From Tahibacter aquaticus (GTDB lineage Bacteria; Pseudomonadota; Gammaproteobacteria; Xanthomonadales; Rhodanobacteraceae), in assembly GCF_004363655.1 (NCBI RefSeq), contig NZ_SNZH01000026.1, positions 1 to 57,525 on the forward strand: DNA of 57,525 bases, given 5' to 3'. The translations under genes and the position numbers were made by a program. Numbering within the stretch: position 1 is the stretch's first letter; each line of letters begins with the position of its first letter. Shown here piece after piece: positions 319 through 52,410 of this stretch. The notes beneath the pieces are model-generated. The model worked only from the letters and a program-made list of their open reading frames with translations, was not told the origin of the DNA and did not search any database.

Positions 319-3036
319 ATGCCGCTGAGCTGGAACGAAATTAAGAGTCGTGCCACTGCCTTTGTCAAGGAGTGGGAGGGCGAAGCTTCCGAGAGCGCGG
401 AAGCGAAGTCATTCTGGGATAACTTTTTTGAGGTTTTTGGTGTACACCGGCGTCGAATCGCCAGTTTCGAGGTACCCATTAAACGTCCCGACGGCAGTGA
501 CGGATTTATAGACTTGCTCTGGAAGGGCATCTTGCTTGTCGAGCATAAATCGAGAGGCAAAGATCTAGATCGCGCGTACGGCCAAGCAAAAGACTACTTC
601 CCTGGCATCAAAGACCGAGATCTACCTCGTTACGTGCTTGTTTCGGATTTCGCACGCTTCCGCCTTTACGATTTGGAAGACAACACTCAACATGAGTTTA
701 CGCTGACCGCGCTGCCGCGGAACCTTCGACTATTTGGATTCATCGCGGGCTATCAAAGCAAAGCATTCAAAGACCAAGATCCTGTCAATATTCGAGCCGC
801 AGAGCGCATGGGCAGGCTACATGACGCACTCAAGGACAGCGGCTATACAGGTCACAAGCTCGAAGTACTACTTGTGCGACTCTTGTTCTGCTTGTTCGCG
901 GAAGACACAGGAATATTCGAGCCTCGGCGCCGTTTTCAAGATTTTATAGAGCGCACGAACGAAGATGGCAGCGACCTCGGCGGTCATCTCGCTACGCTAT
1001 TCGACGCACTCGATACGCCCGTCGTTGCCAGGCAATGCACGCTCGACGCGCAGATTGCTGGATTTCCTTATGTCAACGGCAGGCTCTTTGCTGAACGACT
1101 TCCGCCACCTGCATTCAATAACACAATGCGTGACCGTCTGCTGGACGCAGCCGGCCTTGATTGGAGCGAAATTAGCCCTGCGATATTCGGCGCTCTTTTC
1201 CAATCAATCATGGACGAAAAGGCACGTCGCAATCTTGGCGCGCACTACACTAGCGAGAAAAATATTCTGAAGCTAATCGGGCCTCTATTCCTTGACAGCC
1301 TGAAGGTCGAACTCGAAAAAGCGAAGGGTGGGCGACGTAAACTCCACGAGCTTCACGAGAAGCTCGCTTCCTTACGCTTTCTCGACCCCGCTTGCGGTTG
1401 CGGAAATTTTCTCGTCATAGCGTATAGAGAACTCCGTCTTGTAGAACTGGAGTTGATTGAGGTGCTGTATCAGAAGGATCAAGAGGTTGGACAATTTACA
1501 GATCCAAGACTCCTTGTAAAATGCAACGTCGATCAGTTCTATGGTATCGAAATCGAAGAATTTCCCGCTCAAATCGCTCAACTTGCGCTTTGGCTTGTCG
1601 ACCACCAGATCAACATGCGAGTAAGCGAGCGATTTGGCAACCCATTTGACCGTCTTCCACTCGTCGCATCCGCCACCATTGTTAACGATGACGCCCTCTT
1701 GGTGGACTGGGAGGAGGTCGTTCCGAAAAGCGATCTAAATTACATACTTGGCAACCCTCCATTCTCCGGCGCAATGGTAATGAGCGATGCCGCGCGAAAG
1801 AGTTTTAGCAATGCCGTTCCAGACCTTCATGGCTCTGGCGTACTAGATTATGTCGCCGCCTGGTATTGGCTGGCTGCAAAGTACATCCAGGGAACGGACA
1901 TTACAGTTGGCTTTGTCTCAACAAACTCAATTTGTCAAGGTGAGCAAGTAGGGCTACTGTGGCGCCCGCTGTTTGATCAGTTCGGAATTCGAATAAACTT
2001 CGCTCATCGTACATTCAAGTGGGAGAACGAGGCTCGCGGCAAGGCGGCCGTACACTGCGTGATTGTGGGCTACGCAGCAAAAGATTTAGGCAAGAAAGTT
2101 ATCTTTGACTACGACGCGATTGGTGGTGAGTCGCATTCCGCTCCAGCAAAGAACATCAATGCCTATCTGCTAGATTCTGTTGACGTCTTCCTAGAGAATC
2201 GTTCGACGCCTATCTGCGACGTCCCGCGAATGCGCTTCGGCAGCATGCCGCGAGATGGTGGAAACCTGCTTCTTAGCGACGAAGAAAAGAAAAGCCTGTT
2301 GGCAGAGGAACCTCAGTCAGACACATTTATTCAGCCATTTGTAGGTGCGCACGGCTTCCTAAACGGGGAGGCTCGGTGGTGCATTTGGTTTCATAAGCGA
2401 GACCCAGCGGCACTACGCCACTTGCCCATTCTTCGAAAACGAGTTGAAAACGTTAAAGCATTTAGGCTAGCAAGCAAGGCCCTGAGTACGCAGAAATTTG
2501 CGGCGACCCCGTACTTGTTTTGCCAAATCTCACAACCTGACACTGACTACATCCTGGTACCACGGCACTCGTCCGAGAATCGTCAACTAATACCTATGGG
2601 CTTCCTCAGTGCGAGGGACATCGCCGCCGATAGCTGTAATAGCATTCCAGGAGCAGGGAAGTATCATTTTGGGGTACTGCAAAGTTCTATGCACATGGCA
2701 TGGGTACGGTTCACTTGTGGCCGCCTGAAGAGCGATTTCAGGTACTCCAAAGACGTCGTTTACAATAATTTCCCTTGGCCAGATATCGATGAGAGTAGGC
2801 ATCGTGAAGCCATTGAAGAGCTTGCCGGAAAAGTCTTGAATGTGCGAGGCGATTTTCCAAACAGCACGCTTGCTGATCTTTACGACCCTATTGCAATGCC
2901 AGCGGAACTCGTAAGGGCGCACAACGCGCTCGATCGTGCCGTGGATGCAGCATACGGCAAGCGCGCCTTCAACTCTGACGCTGACAGAGTCGCGTTTTTG
3001 TTTGAACGCTATAAGCGGCTCAGTTCATCGCTCTGA
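319..3036 (+). CDS. MmeI-family (type IIL) restriction-modification enzyme
   Basis: This 905-aa protein combines an N-terminal nuclease with an N6-adenine DNA methyltransferase. The nuclease motif is D65-x9-E75-x-K77 (GFIDLLWKG then VEHK), matching the spacing known for MmeI. Methyltransferase motif I is DPACGCGNF at about 356-364 and motif IV is GNPPFSG at about 478-484. The remaining 400 residues should hold the target-recognition and C-terminal domains of this family. A GAGGAT ribosome site lies about 8 nt before the ATG. Base composition is clearly lower in GC than in the genes after 6 kb, which points to transfer. Such single-chain enzymes cut outside their recognition site and modify one strand. 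A PLD-fold protein gene converges on it 39 bp downstream. Specificity cannot be read from the sequence. It might be a methyltransferase of a larger defence locus, but the intact D-E-K favours a restriction enzyme. Confidence 0.85.
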   Translation: MPLSWNEIKSRATAFVKEWEGEASESAEAKSFWDNFFEVFGVHRRRIASFEVPIKRPDGSDGFIDLLWKGILLVEHKSRGKDLDRAYGQAKDYFPGIKDRDLPRYVLVSDFARFRLYDLEDNTQHEFTLTALPRNLRLFGFIAGYQSKAFKDQDPVNIRAAERMGRLHDALKDSGYTGHKLEVLLVRLLFCLFAEDTGIFEPRRRFQDFIERTNEDGSDLGGHLATLFDALDTPVVARQCTLDAQIAGFPYVNGRLFAERLPPPAFNNTMRDRLLDAAGLDWSEISPAIFGALFQSIMDEKARRNLGAHYTSEKNILKLIGPLFLDSLKVELEKAKGGRRKLHELHEKLASLRFLDPACGCGNFLVIAYRELRLVELELIEVLYQKDQEVGQFTDPRLLVKCNVDQFYGIEIEEFPAQIAQLALWLVDHQINMRVSERFGNPFDRLPLVASATIVNDDALLVDWEEVVPKSDLNYILGNPPFSGAMVMSDAARKSFSNAVPDLHGSGVLDYVAAWYWLAAKYIQGTDITVGFVSTNSICQGEQVGLLWRPLFDQFGIRINFAHRTFKWENEARGKAAVHCVIVGYAAKDLGKKVIFDYDAIGGESHSAPAKNINAYLLDSVDVFLENRSTPICDVPRMRFGSMPRDGGNLLLSDEEKKSLLAEEPQSDTFIQPFVGAHGFLNGEARWCIWFHKRDPAALRHLPILRKRVENVKAFRLASKALSTQKFAATPYLFCQISQPDTDYILVPRHSSENRQLIPMGFLSARDIAADSCNSIPGAGKYHFGVLQSSMHMAWVRFTCGRLKSDFRYSKDVVYNNFPWPDIDESRHREAIEELAGKVLNVRGDFPNSTLADLYDPIAMPAELVRAHNALDRAVDAAYGKRAFNSDADRVAFLFERYKRLSSSL

Positions 3037-4777: not shown

Positions 4778-4981
4778 GGCGCCCCTGCCCCCCAAAGATT
4801 GTCTTGTTGCCGATTCCTATCTGCTCCTGGGATCGAAGCGGGCCTCTCTCCGGCGCTTGGACCGAGGGAAGCCGAGCCACATCCGTTTCAGAAGCTTTCC
4901 TAGCCTGTCACCGCGGGCCGAGACCTCTCAGCGGCTAGCAGGGAATGTGCTCGACCAGTACCAGCGGGCATATCCGTACTC

Positions 4982-5010
4982 TTGACGCTGCCCACCTCCG
5001 GATAAACAAT
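4982..5010 (+). promoter_or_regulatory. Probable sigma-70 promoter of leader module, copy 1
   Basis: TTGACG at 4982-4987 and AACAAT at 5005-5010 are 17 bp apart. The same two hexamers at the same spacing occur at 38003-38031 in front of the second copy. The predicted start falls about 7-8 nt downstream, just at the first leader hairpin (5018). The inter-hexamer sequence differs between copies, so conservation is concentrated on the promoter elements. Confidence 0.6.
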
Positions 5011-5017
5011 GCCTCCC

Positions 5018-5258
5018 GTTGCCGCCAATTCGGCAACCGGGTTTTGCAGCCCGAAAGCACGACGCACACAGCGTCGCTCCGTGAGTCGGCGTTTTTTTAC
5101 GTCCGATTTTCGTGCGATGTCGTCTGCCGCTTTTTGGCGGCGGTGTGCGGGGAGCCGCGAGGCTCGCCGGTCTTCGTGCCCGGTCTGCAAACCCGCACAC
5201 CGTTCGCCACCCTTTTCGCATCCGTCTCGGGTGGCGACTCCCTATCAAGGAGTTGTCC
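5018..5258 (+). ncRNA. Structured leader RNA, copy 1
   Basis: About 240 nt with helices also found in copy 2: GTTGCCG 5018-5024 with 5031-5037; GACGC 5061-5065 with GCGTC 5071-5075 around an ACACA loop; GTGTGCGGG 5143-5151 with CCCGCACAC 5192-5200; inside it GAGCC 5152-5156 with GGCTC 5161-5165 closed by a GCGA loop; CGCCACCC 5205-5212 with GGGTGGCG 5229-5236. The last helix ends about 15 nt before an AAGGAG ribosome site. In copy 2 the ACACA helix is GGCGC/GCGCC, a compensatory change, and the GNRA loop is GCAA. A cis-acting RNA acting on translation of the downstream ORFs is inferred. I do not recognise the class. Confidence 0.65.
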
Positions 5259-5357
5259 ATGGAAGACCGGTACGCTTGTTCCCCAATCGCTAGCCAACAC
5301 TCGATGCCTTCCGCCGCGCCTGCCGCGGGTTTTCGCCAGCGGAGGGCTGCGCCATGA
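5259..5357 (+). CDS. Micro-ORF of the leader module, copy 1 (32 aa)
   Basis: ATG at 5259 follows AAGGAGTTGTCC, a good ribosome site. The product begins MEDRYACSP, is Ala/Arg-rich, and ends RRAAP. Its TGA (5355-5357) overlaps the next ATG as ATGA. Copy 2 at 38274 keeps the MEDR start, nearly the same length (32 aa), the ..AP end and the same overlap, while the middle has diverged. This looks like a translated coupling or leader peptide rather than a structured protein. Confidence 0.55.
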   Translation: MEDRYACSPIASQHSMPSAAPAAGFRQRRAAP

Positions 5358-5632
5358 CTGATCACGGCTCGTTTCATCCCATTGAACGCTTTGTCGAAGG
5401 TGCAGACCCTGTGCTGTTCGTCTTCGCGACGGATACGCCGGCGCAGCGCCAGGCGCTGCATGACGAGATGGTGGCGCGGCTTTCGGCCATCGCCCAGCTC
5501 AGCGAAACGATGACGTACTCGGGTATCGAGTCGCCGGATGCGCGTTCGCACCAGGGCATTCTCGAATGCGTGGCGATCCTCTCGCGGGATGTGCGCGGGC
5601 TGCTGGAAGCCAGTTTCCGTGCCGGCCCATGA
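5354..5632 (+). CDS. 92-aa protein of the leader module, copy 1
   Basis: A small acidic soluble protein starting MTDHGSFHPIERF, with no signal peptide or membrane segment. The C-terminal half is a helix pair: LSETMTYSGIE, then PDARSH, then AILSRDVRGLLEAS. Copy 2 (38369-38647) has exactly 92 aa and keeps HGSF, LSET, PDARSH and LSRDVRGL-EAS. Decayed copies are at 14506 and 52210. The architecture of two helices around RSHxxIL is reminiscent of small DUF3077-type proteins in gammaproteobacteria, but that is only a resemblance. Translation is probably coupled to the micro-ORF. Function unknown; a regulatory or phage-related role is a guess. Confidence 0.75.
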   Translation: MTDHGSFHPIERFVEGADPVLFVFATDTPAQRQALHDEMVARLSAIAQLSETMTYSGIESPDARSHQGILECVAILSRDVRGLLEASFRAGP

Positions 5633-5924
5633 GTGACTGTGGCCGGGGCGGCATCGCGCCGCTCCGGCGATTGGCGGCAGGCTATGGATCCGGCGGCCGC
5701 CATCAGGAAATTTCACCGTTTCTTCCAGAATTGCGGCGGTTCCACTAGCTGCGGGGTCAGTCTGTCCGCCACACGAATGGCTCCCCGCGCTACGGCGCAT
5801 ACGGCGCCGCACAGAGAGCCGGCGTTTTTATGCTGGCTCGCCGGTCCATGGCTGGACTCGCAGTCCAGCACCCTACGGTTGGCGCCCTACCCCGGTCGCC
5901 CCCGCGGCGAGCAGCGGCTACCCG

Positions 5925-6200
5925 GTGGAAAGTTGCTCCGGGGTAGTGGAAACCGCTTCCGGAAGGGAAAAAAGTCGCAACGACCCGGTCGAACGTCGCT
6001 CCGGACCCGTAGAAACCGCTTCGGTTGAACAAAAAAGTCGCAACGCCCCCGTCGAAAGTCCTTCCGGGGTAGTAGAAACCGCTTCGGTTGGACAAAAAAG
6101 TCGCAACGACCCGGTCGAAAGTCTTTCCGGGGTAGTAGAAACCGCTTCCGTTGGACAAAAAAGTCGCAACGACCCAGTCAGAAGTCCTTCCGACCCAGTC
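5925..6200. repeat. 63-bp minisatellite, four units plus a partial fifth
   Basis: Units begin at 5925, 5988, 6051 and 6114, with a partial unit at 6177, and keep an exact 63-bp phase. Each contains GAAACCGCTTC, then AAAAAAGTCGCAACGACCC, then GTCGAAAG. Because 63 is divisible by three, several frames stay open on both strands; the + frame reads VETASV-QKSRNDP, 21 aa per unit. There is no ribosome site or good start, so I treat it as a non-coding tandem repeat. The 290 bp before it hold no convincing gene. Confidence 0.85.
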
Positions 6201-14376: not shown

Positions 14377-14505
14377 ATTCTGCCGACACCTGAACCCGAT
14401 CGTTGCGGCGGCGTTCGCGCGGTCCGTGGGAATTAGCGTCAACTTCCAGGCCAGCAGCCCTCTTGCGCGGCGAAGGGCCGGCGTCCCTATCGAACGGCGG
14501 CGCGC

Positions 14506-14640
14506 GATGCAGGAACTCAGCGAAACCATCGCAAAGGCGCAGCGGGAATGGCCGGGCTCGCGCACGCACGGTGTGATCCTCGACGCCGTGGCCATCCAGC
14601 GCGCGCGATGTGCGCGGGCTGCTGGAAATCGGTTCGGGTC
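14506..14640 (+). pseudogene. Decayed copy 3 of the 92-aa module protein
   Basis: ELSETIAKAQ ... SRTHGVILDAVAI in one frame continues after a 1-nt shift as DVRGLLEIGSG in the next. These correspond to LSET, RSHQGILECVAI and DVRGLLEAS of the protein at 5354-5632. The N-terminal half, micro-ORF and structured leader are missing or unrecognisable. It is therefore an inactivated relative. Confidence 0.65.
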
Positions 14641-37958: not shown

Positions 37959-38002
37959 CGCAGGGACTTTGATCGGCTGACGCAGGGGACAAATTCACAC
38001 CC

Positions 38003-38031
38003 TTGACGTTGCCACCAAGCAGGTAAACAAT
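38003..38031 (+). promoter_or_regulatory. Probable sigma-70 promoter of leader module, copy 2
   Basis: TTGACG at 38003-38008 and AACAAT at 38026-38031, spaced 17 bp, as in copy 1 at 4982-5010. The first leader hairpin starts at 38038. Confidence 0.6.
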
Positions 38032-38037
38032 CCGTCC

Positions 38038-38273
38038 GTTGCCGCCCATTCGGCAACCGGGTTTAGCAGCCCGCACCGTAGGCGCACACAGCGCCGCACC
38101 GAAGTCGGCGTTTTTTTACGCCCAGCTTTTGTGCAGCGCCGCATGCCGATTTCTGGCGGCGGTGTGCGGGGAGCCGCAAGGCTCGCCGGTCCTACGCCGG
38201 TCTGCTAACCCGCACACCGTTCGCCACCCTTTTCGCCGTTCCGGGTGGCGACTCCACGCAAAGGGAGTTGTCC
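38038..38273 (+). ncRNA. Structured leader RNA, copy 2
   Basis: Helices: GTTGCCG 38038-38044 with 38051-38057; GGCGC 38081-38085 with GCGCC 38091-38095 around ACACA; GTGTGCGGG 38162-38170 with 38209-38217; GAGCC 38171-38175 with GGCTC 38180-38184 around GCAA; CGCCACCC 38222-38229 with GGGTGGCG 38243-38250. Relative to copy 1, loop and linker bases vary while pairing is kept. The ribosome site AAAGGGAG follows about 14 nt after the last helix. Confidence 0.65.
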
Positions 38274-38372
38274 ATGGAAGATCGGTCTGCAATTGGCGGC
38301 ACTGAGCCGCGCCCTTGTTGCTTTATCCGCGTTGGCGGCGTTGTTCCCTTCGCTGGGAGGCACGCGCCATGA
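38274..38372 (+). CDS. Micro-ORF of the leader module, copy 2 (32 aa)
   Basis: ATG at 38274 after GGGAGTTGTCC. The product starts MEDRSAIGG and ends RHAP; the TGA overlaps the next ATG (ATGA at 38369-38372). The length matches copy 1, with only the first four residues and the last two conserved. Confidence 0.55.
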   Translation: MEDRSAIGGTEPRPCCFIRVGGVVPFAGRHAP

Positions 38373-38647
38373 CCCGTCACGGTTCGTTCTATCCCCTGCG
38401 CCGCGATGTCGCGTCGGCCGAGCCGGTGATGTTTGCCTATGTGCTCGATTCGCCCGCCCAGCGCGAGGCCTTGCAGGAAGAAATGCTGGATCGCATCGCG
38501 GCCATTCAAGGGCTCAGCGAAACGGTGGCGTTGGCGCAGCTGGAGGCGCCGGATGCGCGCTCGCATGGCGCCATTCTCGATGCGCTGGCGATTCTGTCGC
38601 GCGATGTGCGCGGGCTGATGGAGGCCAGTTTCCATCAGGGGCCGTAA
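38369..38647 (+). CDS. 92-aa protein of the leader module, copy 2
   Basis: MTRHGSFYPLRRD start; core LSETVALAQLE, PDARSH, AILSRDVRGLMEAS. About 60% of positions match copy 1 at 5354-5632, with identical length and no gaps. Sequence similarity continues briefly past the stop (CCGGGGCGGC). Soluble, mostly helical, no catalytic motif. Given coupled translation and a structured leader, it is probably the product controlled by the leader RNA. Function unknown. Confidence 0.75.
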   Translation: MTRHGSFYPLRRDVASAEPVMFAYVLDSPAQREALQEEMLDRIAAIQGLSETVALAQLEAPDARSHGAILDALAILSRDVRGLMEASFHQGP

Positions 38648-38973
38648 GCCCCCTGGCTGCCGGGGCGGCGCCCTGCCGCCTCGGTTCCCCCCTCGCGCTG
38701 CGGCCCGTGAACCCGCCCTCTCTGTCGCGGTTCTGCGAGAATCGGCCCCGAGACGGCTCTCCCTTTTTTCGGCAGCGCGCTGCACGGTCAGCAGGCGCAC
38801 CGGCCACCCTGGATTGGAACCTCTCACGTCTTGCACTCTTGGCGGTGCGTCGCACGGCGCCGAGCTACATACCTATGTCGACGAGCAAATCGCGTTCATT
38901 TGCTTGCTACACCTTCTGCGCTCTGCGAAGTGAAACGCCGCCTGCTTGGCATGCGGCGTGGTCGCACTCCCGA
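38648..38973. other. Intergenic region, no gene seen
   Basis: About 325 bp between module copy 2 and the convergent secreted-protein gene. It contains a small CCCC-TGGCTGC-CGGGG hairpin just after the module but no ORF with a ribosome site. Confidence 0.4.
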
Positions 38974-41287: not shown

Positions 41288-41430
41288 CAGTAACTCCCTT
41301 TGATGGTGCTCCCCTGAACAAATGCACAGCAGTGCACGGGGTGCGTCCGTTTCTACATTCTTGTAGGTACTGACGCGTCGGCTTATCGGGGGCTCCCGCG
41401 GAAACCGCGCAGGGTTGCAGCGACCGGTGG

Positions 41431-41934
41431 TTAGGTCCAGCTGACCTTGCGTTGGGTCCTGGCGAGCCTCGCTTGGGTCCGGCCGACCTTGCGTCGGGTC
41501 CCGGCGATCCTCGCTTGGGTCCGGCCGACCTTGCGTTGGGTCCCGGCGACCTTCGCTTGGGTCAAGGCGACATTGCATCGGGTCCCGGCGACTCGCGCTT
41601 GGGCCCAGCCGACCTTGCGTTGGGCCCCGGCGTCCTTCGCTTGGGTCAAGCCGACCTTGCGTCGGGTCCCGGCGACCCTCGCTTAGGCCCAGCCGACCTT
41701 GCGTTGGGCCCCGCCGTCCTTGCGTCGGGCCCCGCCGTCCTTGCGTTGGGCCCAGCCGACCTTGCGTCGGGTCCCGGCGACCCTCGCTTGGGCCCAGCCG
41801 ACCTTGCGTCGGGTCCCGGCGACCCTCCGCAGGGTCCAGCTGAGCGTGCATTGGGTCTCGGCGAGTCTTGCTCGGGCCCAGCCGATCCTTCGTGAGGTCT
41901 CGGCGCCCCTCTGCCGGGTCCGGCCGCCACTCCA
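41431..41934. repeat. 21-bp minisatellite, about 24 units
   Basis: Units such as TTGGGTCCCGGCGACCTTCGC and TTGGGCCCAGCCGACCTTGCG alternate, and the 21-bp phase holds without an indel over about 24 units. One frame on each strand reads as heptapeptides (GPGDPRL/GPADLAL on +, RDPTQGR/LGPSEGR on -). The 310 bp left of it, up to 42244, hold nothing I can call. Confidence 0.85.
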
Positions 41935-52209: not shown

Positions 52210-52410
52210 CTACTCGGCCAACGCATGCCCCGTCGCTTCGATCAACCCTTTCGCATCCCGCGACAGAACGGCAATCGCCTCCATCATTCGCGCATGCGAG
52301 CGCCGTCCCGGGTCTTCGACCTGCATGCTCAGCAACGCATCGCTGAGCGAACTGACAGCAGCCAGGCGGGCCATGGCTTCGTCGTGGAGGGCGCATCGCT
52401 CCGCATCAAC
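52210..52410 (-). pseudogene. Decayed copy 4 of the 92-aa module protein
   Basis: On the minus strand the frame reads ERCALHDEAMARLAAVSSLS, then EDPGRRSHARMMEAIAVLSRD, then AKGLIEA. This corresponds to QALHDEMVARLSAIAQLS, PDARSHQGILECVAILSRD and VRGLLEA of copy 1. A TGA interrupts the frame four codons upstream, the N-terminal third is missing or shifted, and no leader is recognisable. The remaining 51832-52209 and 52411-52507 contain no gene. Confidence 0.7.

Follow-up and report, generated by a model that had tools for sequence, protein, structure and literature searches.

C4 antisense RNA cassettes on the Tahibacter aquaticus chromosome carry target loops mostly matched to their own leaders and precede a conserved 92-aa ORF

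The immunity operon in the reference record of phage P1 is annotated with targets a1 and b1 in the leader, the C4 antisense RNA, further targets a2 and b2 after C4, and icd; P1 and Pseudomonas phage CF3a have their elements in the same order as the loci described here. The P4 CI RNA, with seqA and seqC, is an antisense terminator system. In Salmonella, the portion of a report available to us describes IsrK as a short leader RNA that activates, i.e. the opposite direction of control, and compares it with P4 CI (PMC4825925). Many C4 small RNAs ('Group 1') with a variable target loop have been described from a single genome, that of Acinetobacter baumannii AB5075; the part of that paper on which we draw suggests incoming phage or other bacterial RNAs as targets and leaves the matter open (PMC5320573). 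C4 and c4-a1b1 are also listed in the accessible text of a further publication (PMC2864571), and the available text of one Xylella paper lists C4 beside isrK. We found no literature on Tahibacter antisense RNA and, in the open-licence literature, neither a published description of the Tahibacter cassette nor a report of a cis-matched barcode across sibling chromosomal copies. Multi-copy C4 RNAs within a genome are already published for Acinetobacter, and the cassette described here is a variant of that arrangement.

We analyzed a 57,525-nucleotide stretch of the T. aquaticus genome (the window), which contains two cassettes on the forward strand with approximate edges at 4965–5670 (cassette 1, a dispersed unit of ~700 bp) and 37984–38674 (cassette 2). 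Re-reading of the sequence bore out the layout given for both loci in a first-pass annotation: a TTGACG-N17-AACAAT promoter (4982–5010, predicted from sequence only, and 38003–38031), a structured leader, a micro-ORF of 32 aa (5259–5357 and 38274–38372), and a 92-aa ORF (5354–5632 and 38369–38647). The start of the 92-aa ORF overlaps the micro-ORF stop through ATGA, and the micro-ORF takes the place that icd has in P1. The GCGA and GCAA inner hairpin loops it listed are likewise present in the sequences of the two loci. Between leader and micro-ORF, each cassette matches the Rfam C4 model (RF01695) over its full length (model positions 1–87), at 5130–5214 with 66.9 bits (E 7.2e-11) and at 38149–38231 with 65.9 bits (E 1.3e-10), against a gathering score of 45; the window holds no other C4 match. 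Together with an alignment of the two cassettes at 73.3% identity over 667 bp, these E values rule out chance. In both copies the C4 segments a′ and b′ are complementary to the upstream a1 and b1, and all 43 copies listed carry GG on the 5′ side of C4, where RNase P 5′ processing is putative. We are practically certain that both loci encode C4 antisense RNAs.

The leader elements score less highly. A permissive scan of the first locus returned isrK (RF01394) at 5018–5096 with 45.8 bits, below the gathering score of 50, and c4-a1b1 (RF03163) at 5012–5057 with 39.8 bits, below 46.7; in this isrK-like and c4-a1b1-like leader (5018–5096), a GTTGCCG/CGGCAAC helix is followed by the a1 hairpin. Such sub-gathering scores could be taken to indicate a new, undescribed class of cis RNA. 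However, C4 lies ~21 bits over gathering in both copies, and the P1 record itself scores 47.9 for isrK, likewise below gathering. We give a new class next to no probability, and the RF01695 match at both loci rules it out. The earlier statement that no described class has this layout does not hold, given that Rfam already contains C4, c4-a1b1, and isrK; an Rfam match, named beforehand as counting against a new class, was obtained for both loci.

Among the window's genes near the cassettes are one of MmeI-type restriction-modification (319–3036, forward strand), ~2 kb 5′ of cassette 1, and a MauJ-like gene. A 63-bp tandem array lies at 5920–6192, with similar arrays in either orientation near L071, L072, L073, and L076; the arrays near these five 92-aa gene copies may belong to a minisatellite that occurs throughout the genome, independently of the cassette. 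A long 21/42/84-bp tandem array occupies 41430–41911.

The complementarity of leader and C4 goes beyond the first-pass annotation, as does the reading of the U-tract after the leader helix as a terminator. In cassette 1, the a1 target TTTGCAG (5043–5049) is the complement of a′ (5185–5191), and the b1 'barcode' GCACGA (5057–5062) is the complement of b′ (5174–5179). The corresponding segments of cassette 2 are a1 TTAGCAG (38063–38069) with a′ at 38202–38208, and b1 CGTAGG (38077–38082) with b′ at 38191–38196. Across 26 Tahibacter copies, the seven pairs between a1, a leader hairpin loop, and a′ are 98.9% paired, compared to 6–62% in slid versions. Changes on both sides were observed in four of the seven pairs versus 2.2 in shuffled data (a value reached by 16 of 500 shuffles), and 26 cells carried both-side changes versus 7.5 shuffled, with 0 of 500 shuffles as good.

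The b′ loop is hypervariable, differing among all nine of the host genome's own 92-aa cassettes and all 18 copies in G001, a one-contig Tahibacter genome. Duplex energies were calculated for 43 of 46 parsed copies (L091, L096, and L100 were unparsed, and the L106 window was mis-set). In the host genome, cognate b1–b′ duplexes had −8.9 versus −5.3 kcal/mol for non-cognate ones, and the cognate partner was best for nine of ten leaders; in G001 the values were −12.0 versus −5.6 kcal/mol, with the cognate best for 17 of 18. None of 20,000 permutations did as well in either genome. When the 43 copies of six genomes were pooled, the cognate was best for just 28 leaders, again with 0 of 20,000 permutations as good. 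The small sets provide a weak test: 180 (G005), 829 (G002), and 1,631 (G007) of 20,000 permutations did as well as the cognate arrangement. Scoring whole leaders by run length, a cruder approach, gave a weaker result, equaled by 77 of 20,000 permutations in the host genome, 1,753 in G005, and 1,694 in G007. The cognate b′ match also beat all 20,000 permutations in G475 (10 copies), G120 (15), and G126 (10), and was reached by 170 of 20,000 in G153 (5 copies).

Two copies in the host genome that encode 95% identical proteins have distinct b′ loops; two G007 copies share one, and some loops recur between genomes. Selection for paralogue divergence in b′ is not shown by these comparisons, in which 67 of 68 within-genome pairs differ versus 278 of 283 between-genome pairs. 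The fast, matched change of b′ and leader is seen. Overall, we consider cis-specific pairing of each C4 RNA with its own leader highly probable.

The leader also contains three strands with alternative partners in folding models: strand A pairs with B in the ACACA-loop hairpin, and B can alternatively pair with C before a U-tract. In cassette 1 the antiterminator-like hairpin (A, GACGC; B, GCGTC; ACACA loop) occupies 5061–5075, and the alternative terminator-like hairpin, formed by B and C and followed by a U7 tract, occupies 5071–5098; in cassette 2 the predicted switch (A, GGCGC; B, GCGCC; C, GGCGT; U7 tract) spans 38081–38117. The paired change from GACGC/GCGTC to GGCGC/GCGCC that the first-pass annotation had noticed in the ACACA-loop helix is genuine, with both-side changes in two of five pairs across 26 Tahibacter copies. 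In the terminator-like hairpin B:C, all five pairs are kept, with no double change. A covariation analysis found the stems kept: in the 26 copies, pairing at 36 positions of leader and C4 stands at 99.7%, versus 33–39% in slid register, and four of five covariation measures exceed all 500 shuffles, the measure of further pair types failing (13 versus 14.0).

The best b1–b′ duplex takes one to three of the first three strand A bases in 42 of 42 copies scored (L106 was left out). Since b1–b′ pairing enters the strand shared by the antiterminator-like and terminator-like hairpins, attenuation is the preferred mode of control. In an equilibrium model the free leader prefers A:B (0.89 in cassette 1, 0.74 in cassette 2). 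Blocking a1, b1, and two A bases raised B:C from 0.13 to 0.96 in cassette 1, from 0.30 to 1.00 in cassette 2, and from a mean of 0.61 to 0.95 over 42 leaders (the L106 row being a parsing failure), although this is a weak test in that the alternative hairpin is all but inevitable once some of strand A is masked. Even with no C4, the terminator stood at 0.9 or more in 18 of the 42 leaders, 12 of these from G001, and it dropped on blocking in three (L001, L103, and L087). C4-driven attenuation is slightly favored as the main mode.

The a2 and b2 targets annotated in P1 were absent from the ribosome site of the first ORF in both window copies, which would place control mainly at transcription, as for the P4 CI RNA. 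A match of 7 nt near the start codon of cassette 1 is not common to its relatives. Elsewhere, a b2-type match of 6–7 nt at the Shine-Dalgarno sequence was found in L001, L003, L078, L081, and L083; an a2-type match is clear solely in L001, L003, and L078, and in L081 and L083 it may instead be the helix that follows C4. Some of the G001 copies also have matches of 6–7 nt, so that runs of this length do not by themselves prove a2/b2.

An ATG micro-ORF whose TGA overlaps the next ATG was found in 23 of 27 copies; three had none by the rule used, and one had an ambiguous start. The Shine-Dalgarno sequence of the cassette 1 micro-ORF (5249–5252) lies inside a predicted hairpin, and in 24 of 27 copies this site falls within a 5-bp helix, whereas the fraction is 0.14 when the upstream sequence is shuffled; the copies are related, and the count is not independent. 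Such burial of the ribosome site would suit activation of the IsrK type, in which the leader, terminated at the U-tract, would act in trans as a short RNA, bind the C4 region of the read-through transcript, and open the micro-ORF ribosome site to allow expression of the coupled ORF. The pairing data are compatible with either direction of control, and the layout is like that of Gifsy-1 isrK-orf45-anrP as given in the accessible text (PMC4825925). However, the partners a′ and b′ sit in C4, and no conserved b′ match was found beside the Shine-Dalgarno sequence in the window copies, which makes it hard to see how binding by the leader would free that site. We consider IsrK-type activation doubtful as the explanation of these loci.

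The cassettes of the window belong to a larger set of copies that the first-pass annotation did not include. The host genome has ten C4 loci, nine of them followed by a micro-ORF of 27–32 codons and a 92–93-aa ORF; the tenth, L004 (G000:C9:18366-18447), precedes a RadC-like gene (Pfam RadC) and not the 92-aa ORF. C4 matches were found in six of eight Tahibacter genomes, ranging from 0 to 19 per genome. Of the 49 matches, 46 were parsed, the exclusions being one each in G002 and G005 (no locus) and a lower-scoring G001 match (53.5 bits, above the cut-off) just behind another copy. Five Tahibacter genomes contributed 28 parsed C4 loci, of which 27 carry the 92-aa ORF. G001 has 19 C4 matches, of which 18 dispersed copies were kept (L102–L119), with the same leader–C4 layout; the 92-aa family has no member there. 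Its cargo is a 95–117-aa ORF that could be aligned from 13 of the 18 copies, the other five having no such clear ATG ORF, and profile comparison detected no similarity between this cargo and the 92-aa family (probability 0.2%). Many copies of the G001 cargo family stand behind longer micro-ORFs with a conserved start.

Seven of the host genome's nine cassettes share ~620–730 bp, from ~165 bp before the C4 start to ~540 bp after it. The remaining two, L067 and L069, are alike over 599 bp; their similarity to the other cassettes lies mainly in ~200 bp of leader and C4. The flanks are unrelated save for two closer pairs (886 and 1,088 bp). Ten flanking proteins of six other copies were scanned: six have ordinary chromosomal domains, four have none, and no phage domain was detected, so no prophage was seen around the copies among the proteins scanned.

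The search for the 92-aa family covered the genus, the family, and a named genome collection. It was found in six of 233 genomes of the family searched, every one Tahibacter, and its named relatives are from Tahibacter harae, T. caeni, and two metagenome assemblies. C4 itself is present in 43 of 230 Rhodanobacteraceae genomes and 28 of 370 sampled Gammaproteobacteria, with matches in 0 of 14 control genomes. Most C4-bearing genomes have one to few copies, and the proteins behind several low-copy loci look like antirepressors, judged by eye. Other multi-copy sets occur in G120 (16 copies, 15 read), G126 (12, 10 read), G153 (10, some sub-cut-off, 5 read), and G475 (10, all read). In G120, G126, and G475, the copies read are followed by other small ORFs; the five G153 copies showed no consistent cargo. 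Many of the ten G475 copies (L193–L202) have long b′ loops, and their cargo ORFs are mostly >100 aa. In G120 and G126 (L144–L157, L203–L212), many cargo proteins have an N-terminal CPxC motif, and the first ORF directly follows C4.

Pairwise comparison of 27 of the 92-aa ORFs gave a median dN/dS of 0.35, with none above 1 (340 of 351 pairs usable), and by this sequence measure the ORF is conserved under purifying selection. The AlphaFold model (mean pLDDT 73) is a helical hairpin of residues 29–59 and 63–88, preceded by 28 residues that lack secondary structure; Foldseek found no match to it in BFVD or the PDB at E 0.001 or better, and the protein has no sequence match in the PDB. Identification as an antirepressor or other known domain was rejected, with no match in Pfam or NCBIfam and a best PHROGs match at E 0.085 to a family of unknown function. 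A defense protein was likewise rejected, PADLOC giving no match for the six proteins scanned. No relatives were found in phage or viral-contig collections, and plasmids gave just two partial matches at E 0.2. We had suspected a link between the cargo and the Pseudomonas DUF3077/DUF6124 small proteins; neither is listed in the Pfam scans of the cargoes. The earlier suggestion of a regulated small-protein cassette, possibly phage-related, is supported in part, by C4, a1b1-like, and isrK-like elements in P1/P7 order and by purifying selection on the ORF; its defense-related side found no backing, with no PADLOC match among the two window proteins and four others scanned.

The host genome contains 13 intact 92-aa ORFs, four of them without C4. 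Of the C4-free copies, C11:464 keeps the promoter and a weak a1b1/isrK-like leader, C29 keeps a 23-codon ATG micro-ORF and the ATGA overlap, and C7 has the same frame end without an ATG in frame; for the fourth, C11:3567, neither a leader nor a micro-ORF was noted. The window also holds two decayed copies of the 92-aa gene, absent from the first-pass annotation, at 52225–52407 (reverse strand) and 14489–14596 (forward strand), one without an N-terminus and the other a frame-disrupted fragment.

These decayed copies, together with the variation in copy number among species (0 to 19 matches) and the fact that C4 is typical of phages, could suggest prophage debris, i.e. copies of an immunity cassette without present function. 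A dN/dS of 0.35 with no pair above 1 argues against debris, as do stems and antisense matches that persist in sets of 26 and 43 copies, a protein for which viral contigs and phages gave no relative, and the lack of phage domains in ten scanned neighbors of six further copies. We regard it as improbable. Known type I toxin-antitoxin families have many copies with private antisense RNAs, and type I toxins are usually hydrophobic. The cassettes share the first of these traits, and C4 could be viewed as the antitoxin of a growth-inhibiting small protein comparable to Icd, which according to the P7 record can cause reversible inhibition of cell division; one G001 cargo also has a weak PHROGs match (E 0.01) to a toxin-antitoxin antitoxin family. 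Against such a type I-like system, four of the 13 intact ORFs in the genome lack C4, and neither window protein is hydrophobic (GRAVY −0.06 and −0.05; maximum over 19 aa, 0.93 and 0.88), making it very unlikely in our judgment.

With fair confidence, we favor the view that each locus is a chromosomal copy of a phage C4 immunity cassette, kept without the phage and self-limiting through C4. A single transcript would carry the leader, the C4 RNA, the micro-ORF, and the 92-aa ORF. C4 would be cut from read-through transcripts, bind its own nascent leader at a1/b1, and tip the switch to termination. Each copy would thereby restrict its own read-through and dose of 92-aa protein, with paralogues less affected.

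More tentatively, a phage immunity switch may repeatedly have become a family of self-addressed chromosomal RNA switches, C4 cassettes having multiplied to 10–18 copies per genome in several Lysobacterales lineages with lineage-specific small-protein cargo, and the barcode of each copy changing faster than the protein although its leader and C4 segments still match. A templated event after duplication may perhaps rewrite both segments jointly. Such a history would show a route by which a phage regulator can outlast its phage on bacterial chromosomes. The targets of the numerous C4 RNAs in a single genome are an open question in the published text consulted (PMC5320573), and the sequences of the genomes read here suggest their own leaders as the answer. 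The 10 to 18 putative sibling RNA switches per genome are natural sets for measuring the specificity of antisense pairing, and the cassettes supply small-protein families for testing.

Among known systems, the Acinetobacter AB5075 set likewise has many C4 RNAs per genome with a variable loop; according to the portion of that paper available to us, our sole source on AB5075, its targets were left open, whereas here the loops match the cassette's own leader and a small-protein cargo is identified (PMC5320573). The P4 CI RNA, in the accessible text, is a processed antisense RNA of the same transcript that binds its own leader to bring about termination, a likeness we propose for C4 here (PMC4825925). 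Unlike the window cassettes, P4 CI serves satellite phage immunity, and antisense-driven termination is here a prediction of folding models. With Gifsy-1 isrK-orf45-anrP, as described in the same excerpted source, the cassettes have in common a coupled small ORF and a leader with a predicted terminator, and would also share a read-through mRNA and a processed downstream RNA; the Gifsy-1 system is prophage-borne with another downstream protein, and the isrK score here is sub-gathering (PMC4825925). Compared to the P1/P7 immunity operon, the cassettes are chromosomal and multi-copy, the window copies are without a2/b2, and in place of an antirepressor they encode a 92-aa protein for which no phage relative was found. 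They share with that operon the C4 fold and score, the a1/b1 targets in the leader, and a micro-ORF in the icd position, and the next ORF overlaps this micro-ORF in the window cassettes just as ant1 overlaps icd in P7.
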